From contig QEVR01000002.1 of the NCBI GenBank assembly GCA_003576745.1, positions 237,884 to 301,883 of the forward strand: a DNA stretch of 64,000 nt, in the 5' to 3' direction. The stretch is from Candidatus Uhrbacteria bacterium (lineage in GTDB: Bacteria; Patescibacteriota; Patescibacteriia; 2-12-FULL-60-25). The notes below the pieces were generated by a model. The model was not told where the DNA came from. It saw only the letters and a program-made list of their open reading frames with translations, and did no database searches. The first letter of the stretch is position 1; the number at the start of each line of letters is the position of its first letter. Below are positions 3,695 through 5,721 of this stretch, piece by piece. The translations under genes and the position numbers were made by a program.

Positions 3695-5497
3695 CTACGT
3701 TTCAATCCTCCCCTTCGTCTCCTCCTTTACCCGATCAGCGAAGGCCTGTTTTTCAACGGCCTCTTGTTCTTCCTTTCCGCGAATGCGAAGCGTGAGCGGC
3801 TCGCCCGCCGCTTCCTTGTCCCCCACCACGAGCATATACGGAATCTTCTGCTTTTCCGCGCTGCGAATTTTCTTGCCGACGGATTCATTTGAACGGTCCG
3901 CGGACGCCCGAATCCCCTGCGCCGATAATTCCGCGGCAAGCGTTTCGGCGAATGCCAGATGGCGCTCCGCCACGGGAATGACGAGGACCTGCGTGGGCGC
4001 GAGCCATACGGGGAAGGCGCCCGCATAGTGTTCGATGAGGATGCCGAGGAAGCGCTCAACCGAGCCCAAAATGGCCCGATGCACCATGACCGGCCGCCGT
4101 TTTGATCCGTCGTCCGCCGCATATTCCAGACCGAAACGTTCTGGCTGATTGAAATCCGCCTGAATGGTGGCAAGCTGCCATTCGCGGCCGATGGCGTCCT
4201 TTGCCACGAAATCGAGCTTTGGCCCGTAAAAGGCGGCTTCCCCTTCCCCGATTTCCACCGAAACGCCCGCCTGCTTCATCACGTTCGCAAGAGCGGCTTC
4301 GGCTTTTTGCCAACTTTCGTCCCCACCGAGATATTTTTCCGGATGCCCCGGATCGCGCACGGAAAGCCGGACGCGGAGCGGCATGCGGAAGACGCCATAA
4401 AATGCTTCAATAATGCGATACATGCCCATAACTTCCGTTTGCACCTGATCAGCCATGCAGAATACATGCGCGTCATCCTGCGTAATGGAACGGACGCGCG
4501 ACAAGCCCTGAAGCTGGCCGGTGTTCTCGTCGCGATACACGGTAGTGACTTCGCTGTAGCGGAGCGGAAGATCGCGATAACTCCGCGGACGCGACGCGTA
4601 GATCTGCGCATGATGCGGGCAATTCATGGGCTTGAGCACGAATTCCTCGTCGGACTTTTTGGAAGAGACGTGAAAAAGGTCGTCTTCGAATTTGTCCCAG
4701 TGGCCGGAGGTCTTATAAAGCTCGGATTTTGCGAGATGCGGAATCCATACGCGCTCATAGCCGTAGGGCTTCATGAGCTCCCACACGAAATCGGTGAGCA
4801 GATTGCGGAGCAAAACGCCGCGCGGGGTAAAGAGCGGCAGGCCGGATCCCACAAGCGGAGAAAAGGCGAACAGATCGAGTTCCGCGCCGAGCTTGCGATG
4901 ATCCCGCTTTTCCGCCTCTTCGAGCATGCGCTCGAATGCCGCAAGCGCCTGCGGCGTTTCGAAGCACAACCCGTAGATCCTTTGCATTTGCGGGTTATTC
5001 TGATTGCCGCGCCAATAGGCGCCTGAAACTTTCCAAAGTTTCCATGCGCCGATATCGGATGCATGGCCAACATGCGGCCCGCGGCAAAGGTCCGTAAAAT
5101 CTCCCGTTTTATACACGGATACCGTATGAATATTCGTAGGATCGATATCGCCGGATTCTTCCTCGGAAAGCTTTGTCGTCCCTTTCGTTTTCAAATCATT
5201 CAGCAATTCGACTTTATAGGGCTGTCCCATGCGCTCGAAAAGCTGAATCGCTTCGTCGATAGGCATTTCCTGCCGTTCAAAGGCCGGATTCTCTTTAAGG
5301 ATATCCTTCATCGCATCAGCGATCTGTTTGACATTCTCCGGCGTAAAAGCGCGTCCAATGTCGATATCGTAATAAAACCCGTTTTCGACCACCGGGCCGA
5401 CGCCGAATTTCGCTGACGGGAACAAGCGGTGCACGGCCGCGGCCATGAGGTGGGCGGCGCTGTGTCTTTGCGTGTCAATCGGATACGGAATGGGCAT
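3695..5497 (-). CDS. thrS: Threonyl-tRNA synthetase, without TGS domain
   Basis: Class II synthetase charging tRNA-Thr. The 600 residues start directly in the N2/editing domain with the HxxxH pair (H12, H16) and contain DLCRGPH of the editing site. The catalytic core has MNCPHH (zinc-binding Cys and His), motif 2 around YRDENTGQLQGLSRVRS, and motif 3 near HRAILGSVERFLG. The C-terminal anticodon-binding domain includes ADRSNESVGKKIR. E. coli ThrRS has about 640 residues; the roughly 60-residue N-terminal TGS domain is absent here, and no upstream in-frame sequence could encode it. The gene lies behind a T-box leader (5522-5696) that probably senses uncharged tRNA-Thr. Confidence 0.96.
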   Translation of the reverse strand: MPIPYPIDTQRHSAAHLMAAAVHRLFPSAKFGVGPVVENGFYYDIDIGRAFTPENVKQIADAMKDILKENPAFERQEMPIDEAIQLFERMGQPYKVELLNDLKTKGTTKLSEEESGDIDPTNIHTVSVYKTGDFTDLCRGPHVGHASDIGAWKLWKVSGAYWRGNQNNPQMQRIYGLCFETPQALAAFERMLEEAEKRDHRKLGAELDLFAFSPLVGSGLPLFTPRGVLLRNLLTDFVWELMKPYGYERVWIPHLAKSELYKTSGHWDKFEDDLFHVSSKKSDEEFVLKPMNCPHHAQIYASRPRSYRDLPLRYSEVTTVYRDENTGQLQGLSRVRSITQDDAHVFCMADQVQTEVMGMYRIIEAFYGVFRMPLRVRLSVRDPGHPEKYLGGDESWQKAEAALANVMKQAGVSVEIGEGEAAFYGPKLDFVAKDAIGREWQLATIQADFNQPERFGLEYAADDGSKRRPVMVHRAILGSVERFLGILIEHYAGAFPVWLAPTQVLVIPVAERHLAFAETLAAELSAQGIRASADRSNESVGKKIRSAEKQKIPYMLVVGDKEAAGEPLTLRIRGKEEQEAVEKQAFADRVKEETKGRIET

Positions 5498-5521: not shown

Positions 5522-5696
5522 AAAAATAAAATATCCCGACGATCTTTATGATGCCGGGACGAGCCCGTCCGACGAGCCCGCGGTTCCACCCGAATTGTCC
5601 GATGAGGATCGGACCGCTTTGTTCTCAAATTGTGTCGCCCGGGTGGTGAGGCCGGGAGGAAACAGCTCCACGCTGTACGTGACAATAGTATCGGAG
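5522..5696 (-). promoter_or_regulatory. T-box leader of thrS with terminator
   Basis: Read on the minus strand, the thrS leader contains the diagnostic T-box word GGGTGGAACCGCG (5591-5579). It is preceded by a stem III-like hairpin GTCCGAT-CCTC-ATCGGAC. It is followed by an intrinsic terminator (about 5559-5534, TCCCGGCATC pairing with GATCGTCGGGA) and the T-rich run TATTTTATTTTT. A compact stem I region of about 60 nt is closed by ATTGTC/GACACAAT; its 3' side carries ACCA, which could present the Thr codon ACC as specifier. The UGGA bulge would pair with a tRNA ending UCCA. The leader ends about 25 nt before the ATG. The T-box assignment is firm; the specifier is inferred. Confidence 0.85.
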
Positions 5697-5721
5697 CGCC
5701 GAAAGAACGTCAATGCGGAAT

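Follow-up and report, generated by a model that had tools for sequence, protein, structure and literature searches.

T-boxes are tRNA-sensing switches for which at least four classes have been described, with binding augmented by an elbow module, by an S-turn in Stem II, or by both (PMC10482949, in the part of the text available). In Class III, one of the systems closest to that discussed here, the specifier codon lies in a loop of 5–6 nucleotides (nt), Stem II is required and control is mostly translational, as given in the same part of that source (PMC10482949). A typical Stem II domain comprises about 70 nt and has a pseudoknot of 21 nt following its stem, the region spanning about 10 to 200 nt; the available portion of the review giving these figures asks whether any T-box functions without a kink-turn (K-turn) (PMC7583486). 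Here, we describe a leader of about 157 nt on the minus strand, located 5′ of thrS (3695–5497), in a 64,000-nt stretch of DNA (“the window”) from one contig of a Candidatus Uhrbacteria genome, which was searched in full (1,064,618 bases in 4 contigs).

The leader comprises, in this order, a short specifier hairpin, an RRRNG motif with Stem III and AA, an antiterminator with the bulge UGGAACC, and an overlapping terminator. We read it as a T-box that controls thrS by transcription attenuation, with a small specifier hairpin and the contact to the UCCA end of the tRNA sufficing, and assign this reading a probability of roughly 0.87. Judged by its sequence anatomy, the leader is a genuine T-box; fold models predict it to be a transcriptional attenuator.

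In the accessible section of PMC2494555, T-boxes are listed in Firmicutes, Actinobacteria, Chloroflexi, Deinococcus/Thermus and two Proteobacteria. Our literature search, outside which most subscription papers lay, found no paper linking a T-box with the Candidate Phyla Radiation, Patescibacteria or Parcubacteria; for Patescibacteria together with riboswitches, it returned one paper, which in its available part proposes riboswitches as tools (PMC11665869).

Discriminator Domain and Rfam Match

The T-box sequence GGGTGGAACCGCG lies at 5591–5579 (−), 5′ of thrS, within a match to the Rfam family RF00230 (5630–5555, minus strand; 32.2 bits; E 1.6e-5 for the 451-base stretch searched). In the whole-genome search (E 8.7e-6), this was the sole match at E ≤ 0.001. 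An earlier interpretation made without database searches (the sequence-only reading) had proposed a T-box before thrS in a Patescibacteria-like genome, and this is upheld by the match, by UCCA at the end of all three tRNA-Thr genes and by leader-model matches, with covariation, in 25 of 41 family genomes; the Infernal search it suggested yields a match, though one below the gathering score of 93. The alignment is partial, covering model positions 148–216 of 219, that is, Stem III and the antiterminator only, the 3′ half. Scanning the whole window at gathering thresholds gave three tRNAs and no T-box, and among 14 control genomes RF00230 found matches in five, above the cut-off in two. In our view, this threshold marks what a model with a long Stem I can detect and does not define the T-box biologically. 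Across 192 genomes (this one and its relatives), 76 were matched at E ≤ 0.01 and seven above the gathering score; a search at the gathering threshold therefore overlooks most of the T-box candidates found here.

The features of the leader, with the evidence for each in brackets, are:

5638–5656 (−): minimal Stem I, CCCGG-CCUCACCAC-CCGGG (25 of 25 leaders; covariation)
5645–5647 (−): specifier codon ACC (Thr) in the apical loop (family comparison; tRNA-Thr(GGU) gene present)
5620–5637 (−): 18-nt linker where other T-boxes carry Stem II and Stem IIA/B (alignment, fold)
5615–5619 (−): RRRNG motif, AAGCG (sequence)
5597–5614 (−): Stem III, GUCCGAU-CCUC-AUCGGAC, then AA at 5596–5595 (RF00230 match, covariation, fold)
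5555–5592 (−): antiterminator, with CGGG/CCCG helix, bulge and GC-rich upper helix (RF00230 match, fold)
5582–5588 (−): T-box bulge UGGAACC, its UGGA (5588–5585) complementary to UCCA of tRNA-Thr (RF00230 match, tRNA genes)
5534–5559 (−): terminator-like hairpin UCCCGGC...GUCGGGA, having 5559–5555 in common with the 3′ strand of the antiterminator (fold, hairpin script)
5522–5533 (−): U-rich tract UAUUUUAUUUUU (sequence)

The RRRNG motif, as defined in the available part of PMC7778990, Stem III and the AA dinucleotide follow one another directly (5619–5615, 5614–5597 and 5596–5595, minus strand). A first guess, with GCGG/CCGC as part of the antiterminator, was superseded by the Rfam arrangement, which places CGGG/CCCG around UGGAACC. 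The sequence-only reading had assigned the interval 5522–5696 to the leader; its T-box part holds, on the minus strand, and its 5′ end, from 5696 to about 5679, belongs to the promoter region.

Minimal Stem I and Specifier Codon

In the window, Stem I is a 19-nt hairpin (5656–5638) with a 9-nt apical loop holding the Thr codon ACC; the Stem I of about 60 nt initially supposed does not stand, the actual structure being differently built. The codon matches the downstream thrS and is located 5′ of the discriminator domain. A long Stem I extending into the −10 region (UUGUC with GACACAA) was also considered and dropped, as it overlaps the −10 element and the expected start.

The hairpin recurs throughout the leaders of the family, 25 of which were compared. 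Of these, 21 were chosen by a T-box core before thrS, three (L264, L266, L267) came from fetched thrS upstream regions, and one (L287) owes its inclusion to a match of the leader model, of which Stem I is a part. The 21-leader hairpin count excludes L240, which a contig end truncates and whose genome carries L287 on its other contig; L260 was not located among the thrS upstream regions, and L268 and L269 were of insufficient length. A hairpin of at least four pairs with a 7–9-nt loop, in which ACN is followed by two bases and the 3′ arm, occurs between the assumed −10 element and the T-box in 21 of 21 leaders, as against a mean of 1.96 and a maximum of 7 of 21 in 200 dinucleotide shuffles. With a strict pattern, composed after the leaders had been seen, the hairpin is found in all 25 leaders and in none of 11 family thrS upstream regions without a T-box. 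The specifier codon is ACC in 21 leaders, ACG in three and ACA in one, thus specifying Thr in 25 of 25, and each of the three genomes with ACG has a tRNA-Thr(CGU) gene. In a relative from the phylum (L302), ACU stands at the specifier place, with a thrS motif 1,320 nt downstream. The loop measures 9 nt in 17 leaders, 7 nt in seven and 8 nt in one; the 7-nt loops, CUACCAA or CCACCAA, appear like a tRNA anticodon loop with the codon in the place of the anticodon. From this arrangement, we infer a loop–loop contact of the specifier hairpin with the tRNA.

The MAFFT alignment (A1) displaced the 5′ arms of rows with 7-nt loops, and base pairs were, therefore, taken from A2, restricted to 9-nt loops, and from A3 and A4, which were fitted to the model and are biased in its favour. 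In A2 (13 leaders), eight of ten pairs changed on both sides, a number reached in 0 of 500 shuffles. The covariance model R1, built from these 13 leaders, matched all 12 leaders outside its building set, L287 among them having been found using the model. In these 12, there are 23 cells changed on both sides (5.6 when shuffled; 0 of 500 as high; 2 of 500 for the number of changed pairs), with 93.2% of cells paired and the covariation score at 0.641 (0.232 shuffled). For Stem I and Stem III in all 25 leaders, 49 cells changed on both sides compare with a shuffled mean of 13.2 (0 of 500) and with 1–9 cells in slid controls; paired cells amount to 93.1% and the covariation score to 0.609 (0.240 shuffled). 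Within Stem I, four of the five pairs changed on both sides and one is invariant. The compact leader proposed from the letters alone is supported by this covariation and by leader-model matches in 25 of 41 family genomes (E ≤ 0.1, one match each).

Correspondence between the tRNA-Thr End and the T-Box Bulge

The genome encodes tRNA-Thr with the anticodons GGU, UGU and CGU (ARAGORN), and all three genes end in ..GGCUCCA (U73-CCA), so that UGGA of the bulge can pair with UCCA in three of three. The sequence-only reading had predicted just such an end and had named a discriminator A, seen in none of the three genes, as the contrary case. Among the relatives, 29 of 30 tRNA-Thr genes end in UCCA, the remaining one apparently being cut by a contig end; they were found by likeness to the GGU gene (23 of 24 genomes matched) and the CGU gene (4 of 4) of the present genome. 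The variable letter of UGGN follows the gene in the RF00230 loci of the relatives: it is A for Thr (39/39) and Gly (4/4), U for Val (12/12), Ile (2/2) and Pro (2/2), and C for aspartyl-tRNA synthetase (AspRS; 6/7) and tryptophanyl-tRNA synthetase (2/2). In this survey, 104 of 106 RF00230 loci were kept, L231 and L014 having no core under the pattern used; gene labels were checked for nine class proteins and thrS, the others deriving from N-terminal sequence and clustering.

As a separate observation, L315 (1407–1482) and L316 (1311–1386 and 1407–1480) hold tRNA-Thr-like genes that lack CCA and have a rebuilt anticodon arm; ARAGORN assigns them the four-base anticodons GGUC and GGCU, and they lie just 5′ of tRNA-Thr(GGU).

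Terminator and Predicted Switch

Following the T-box, as the sequence-only reading had it, are the terminator-like hairpin (5559–5534) and the U-rich tract (5533–5522), both on the minus strand. Antiterminator and terminator both use 5559–5555 and are, by prediction, mutually exclusive. The folds amount to −59.1 kcal/mol when unconstrained, −58.6 kcal/mol in the terminator state and −50.2 kcal/mol with the antiterminator forced; the predicted preference for the terminator in the absence of tRNA would conform to T-box logic, the switch staying off as long as no tRNA stabilizes the antiterminator. In 24 of 24 leaders examined, a U-rich run is preceded by a hairpin (by script, no shuffled control), and in 19 of 24 the 5′ arm of the terminator begins at the 3′ strand of the antiterminator (by eye). 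In the thrS leaders L091, L092, L105, L129 and L156, from Patescibacteria and one further bacterium, the 5′ arm of Stem III and the bases preceding it have their complement just ahead of the U tract, and the terminator may there be a long-range helix around the antiterminator (by eye).

In the proposed mechanism, RNA polymerase would first transcribe the tiny hairpin, displaying the Thr codon ACC in its loop, with which the anticodon of tRNA-Thr(GGU) would pair. If the tRNA is uncharged, its free UCCA end would pair with UGGA of the antiterminator bulge, beside Stem III, keeping CCCG in the antiterminator, and transcription would continue into thrS. With a charged tRNA, or none at all, CCCGG would instead pair downstream, the terminator would form and transcription would end. 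Both the binding of the tRNA and the test of its charging are inferred from this architecture, as is the sufficiency of one small hairpin and the UCCA contact without K-turn, Stem II or elbow contact.

Linker Region and the Question of a Fifth Architecture

We lean towards the further view that the leader represents a fifth T-box architecture, in which a hairpin resembling an anticodon stem–loop at the 5′ end would make a loop–loop contact with the tRNA, UCCA would be the sole second contact and the switch would act on transcription; the hairpin would stand at or near the transcript start, and the 7-nt CU-ACC-AA loops of relatives would resemble the anticodon loop. If this is true, tRNA sensing needs neither elbow module, K-turn nor Stem II, and the thrS family would offer a natural test of the need for the K-turn and for augmentation by elbow module or Stem II, in what are perhaps among the smallest tRNA-sensing switches.

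The region between Stem I and the RRRNG motif is central to this view. It measures 18 nt in the window and has a family median of 21 nt (range 17–49), so that a Class III Stem II with S-turn and IIA/B pseudoknot finds no counterpart, the pseudoknot being judged by linker length and the S-turn by an insensitive pattern. The K-turn pattern was found in 0 of 25 family leaders (shuffled family leaders, mean 0.95 of 25, so that zero is not notably below chance), and in 10 of 27 Val, Ile, Asp, Gly and Pro leaders and 3 of 33 non-family thrS leaders, among which L290 and L292 look K-turned by eye. The S-turn pattern, likewise without a match in the 25 family leaders, is insensitive, as it picks out no more than 5 of 27 leaders of other synthetases; it matched 3 of 33 non-family thrS leaders. 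With these insensitive patterns and, mainly, the missing room in most relatives, the family leaders likely have no K-turn.

The most serious competitor, which we nevertheless hold to be rather unlikely, is a Class III-like T-box in which a cryptic linker element, such as ACAAU, takes the role of Stem II, which would leave nothing fundamentally new in the architecture. By eye, many leaders have ACAAU or a similar sequence in the linker, some class relatives pair an apical specifier with a K-turn-like (10/27) or S-turn-like (5/27) sequence, and short-Stem-I T-boxes outside Actinobacteria may have been recorded already, given the practice of TBDB described in the available part of PMC7778990. Set against this are the median linker of 21 nt (17–49) versus the typical Stem II domain of about 70 nt in the available text of PMC7583486, the K-turn and S-turn counts of 0 of 25 (for the K-turn, with the chance level given above), and the account of Class III in the accessible part of PMC10482949, with a 5–6-nt loop, an obligatory Stem II and mostly translational control.

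As regards the motif itself, ACAAU stands at 5633–5629 (−) in the window and recurs, often as GACAAUC or GACAAUUU, before Stem III in thrS leaders of family and class, for instance in L256, L199, L261 and L228.

Promoter, Locus and Remaining Alternatives

The surroundings of the leader comprise the following features:

3695–5497 (−): thrS, threonine–tRNA ligase (TIGR00418, Pfam)
5660–5676 (−): small 5′ hairpin ACAGC-GUGGA-GCUGU (fold prediction)
5685–5690 (−): −10-like element TACTAT (promoter scan)
5708–5713 (−): −35-like element TTGACG (promoter scan)

The thrS product scores 666.1 bits against TIGR00418 (cut-off 383.65) and contains the Pfam domains tRNA-synt_2b, HGTP_anticodon and tRNA_SAD. 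Its closest named relatives, at 68–75% identity, are mostly from Candidatus Uhrbacteria, on which basis the genome is assigned to Patescibacteria. The promoter-like pair TTGACG-17-TACTAT ends at 5685 (−), and its spacing would put the transcription start (+1) near 5678 (−). The consensus patterns applied in the scans for promoters, K-turns and S-turns are those of general knowledge. By relaxed criteria and with no control, a TTGAC-type pair precedes 20 of 21 family leaders; that taken for L249 is distant, and for L239 none was found. At the place of the small 5′ hairpin, the folds of two other leaders with a long gap show a different hairpin (L248) and hardly any (L261).

Two further explanations appear very improbable to us. 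According to the first, the T-box is decaying, with discriminator and terminator left, the tRNA-reading part lost and the RNA unresponsive; the confinement of the RF00230 match to the 3′ half and the 16 of 41 family genomes without a leader-model match would suit it, against which the Stem I hairpin is present in 25 of 25 leaders, with Thr codons only and with compensatory changes, none of which decay would preserve. According to the second, the hairpin is not the specifier and the true reader is a longer Stem I farther upstream. In textbook T-boxes, the specifier does lie in an internal loop of a long Stem I, and the class has long leaders of this appearance ahead of trp, arg and his genes (by eye). 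However, the distance from the −10 element to the 5′ base of the hairpin is 6–11 nt in 16 of 21 leaders, placing the hairpin at or just past the expected transcription start and hence leaving hardly any space for a lower stem, and the codon at the hairpin place is Thr in 25 of 25. In the other five, the gap is 28 nt (window), 25 nt (L248), 23 nt (L261) or 59 nt (L249, by script), with no promoter found for L239. The possibility that the leader is an ordinary attenuator or terminator in which a T-box-like motif arose by chance, with only the sub-threshold Rfam score in its favour, is practically negligible in view of conservation, covariation, the tRNA end match and gene identity.

Several observations weigh against the reading of the leader as a minimal T-box attenuator. 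The promoter scan reports two sites versus a shuffle mean of 1.8 and is, thus, weak taken alone, and the gap of 28 nt in the window may allow a weak lower helix here. A generic terminator scan of the window does not report the terminator; in L236, L239, L244 and L264, the best terminator shares no more than a few bases with the 3′ strand of the antiterminator, and for L266 the choice of hairpin is doubtful. Furthermore, in 11 family genomes, one of them (G001) from the same genus, no T-box was found within 330 nt upstream of thrS and no leader-model match was obtained; the T-box is, therefore, dispensable over evolution. A ThrRS match was present in 41 of 41 family genomes, with some fragments and two weak matches (G025, G035) that are probably other synthetases. 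Sequence and comparison themselves show the specifier hairpin, Stem III, the T-box bulge with tRNA ends to match it, the terminator overlapping the antiterminator, and the promoter-like element.

T-Boxes outside the Family

Leader-model matches, the family included, were obtained in 151 of 380 genomes of the class (E ≤ 0.01) and in 20 of 286 genomes drawn from the phylum (E ≤ 0.001). The strict hairpin is present in 20 of 33 thrS leaders from outside the family (shuffle mean 0.87, maximum 4), and a permissive scan for cognate codons in 60 class leaders gave 54 matches (label-permutation mean 40.45, maximum 50). A sweeping extension of the minimal architecture meets with several objections: the remaining 13 of 33 non-family thrS leaders either have another form or were missed; the strict hairpin also has matches in 7 of 65 leaders of the “other” category (shuffle mean 1.46, maximum 5); several matches of the permissive scan look like chance hairpins; and the model matches outside the family may rest on Stem III and the T-box, not on Stem I. 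Among five of those seven other leaders, a thrS motif follows after an interposed gene in L204, L212 and L228, and none was seen in L205 and L230.

L204, L212, L220 and L228 have a UGGA T-box before a small gene and then a thrS motif, apparently as operons; the interposed genes look acetyltransferase-, NUDIX-, deacylase- and HAD-like (by eye), and L220 is not among the strict hairpin matches. The T-boxes of the AspRS genes L015, L018, L021, L023, L031 and L174 (six of seven) carry the Asn codon AAC in the apical loop, that of L017 carrying GAC; judging by sequence, this looks like the tuning of a non-discriminating AspRS to tRNA-Asn. L009 and L010, with 90.6 and 88.7 bits, lie just below the gathering score of RF00230 and have UGGG before a phosphorylase-like gene (by eye).

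Comparison with Known T-Box Classes

TBDB ran its class II model on Actinobacteria and, in addition, on class I hits whose Stem I is truncated, as stated in the available part of PMC7778990, and comparable leaders may already be contained there. The T-box of Staphylococcus aureus ileS has earlier been proposed to work without a K-turn (named in the available text of PMC7583486); hence, loss of the K-turn alone is not a new idea. Among the Patescibacteria T-boxes of valS, aspS, glyS, proS and ileS found here, several have, like the thrS leaders, a short hairpin whose apical loop carries the cognate codon; part of them are K-turn-like (10/27) or S-turn-like (5/27), whereas by these patterns none of the 25 family thrS leaders is.

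Class I (e.g., tyrS of Bacillus subtilis) likewise has Stem III, the UGGN bulge and an antiterminator/terminator switch, but also a long Stem I and Stem II, neither of which the thrS leader has. Class II (B. subtilis glyQS) is likewise transcriptional, with a single-stranded linker in place of Stem II; unlike the thrS leader, it has, as far as the available descriptions go, a long Stem I with elbow-binding module, an internal-loop specifier and specificity for glycine. The long Stem I with distal elbow module of both classes contrasts with 19 nt and a promoter-like element upstream in the window. Class IV has an intermediate Stem I with the specifier in a side bulge, whereas the thrS leader has a single hairpin with an apical specifier.

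Class III (ultrashort Stem I; ileS of Nocardia farcinica and Mycobacterium tuberculosis) is among the nearest, sharing a short Stem I without elbow module, an apical-loop specifier and the same kind of discriminator domain. It also needs a K-turn, at the base of Stem I, according to the parts of the literature available; the thrS leader combines an 18-nt linker with a terminator and Thr, and the insensitive pattern found no K-turn in it. The apical loop of 5–6 nt given for Class III in the same parts compares with 9 nt in the window and 7–9 nt in 25 of 25 thrS leaders. Classes III and IV are mostly translational, “mostly” not being strictly defining, in contrast to the terminator-like hairpin and U tract of the thrS leader. 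Measured by the available descriptions of the four classes, the leader, with no elbow module and no room for a typical Stem II, fits none of them, and we read it as a new, minimal T-box variant of the transcriptional type with an apical-loop Stem I.
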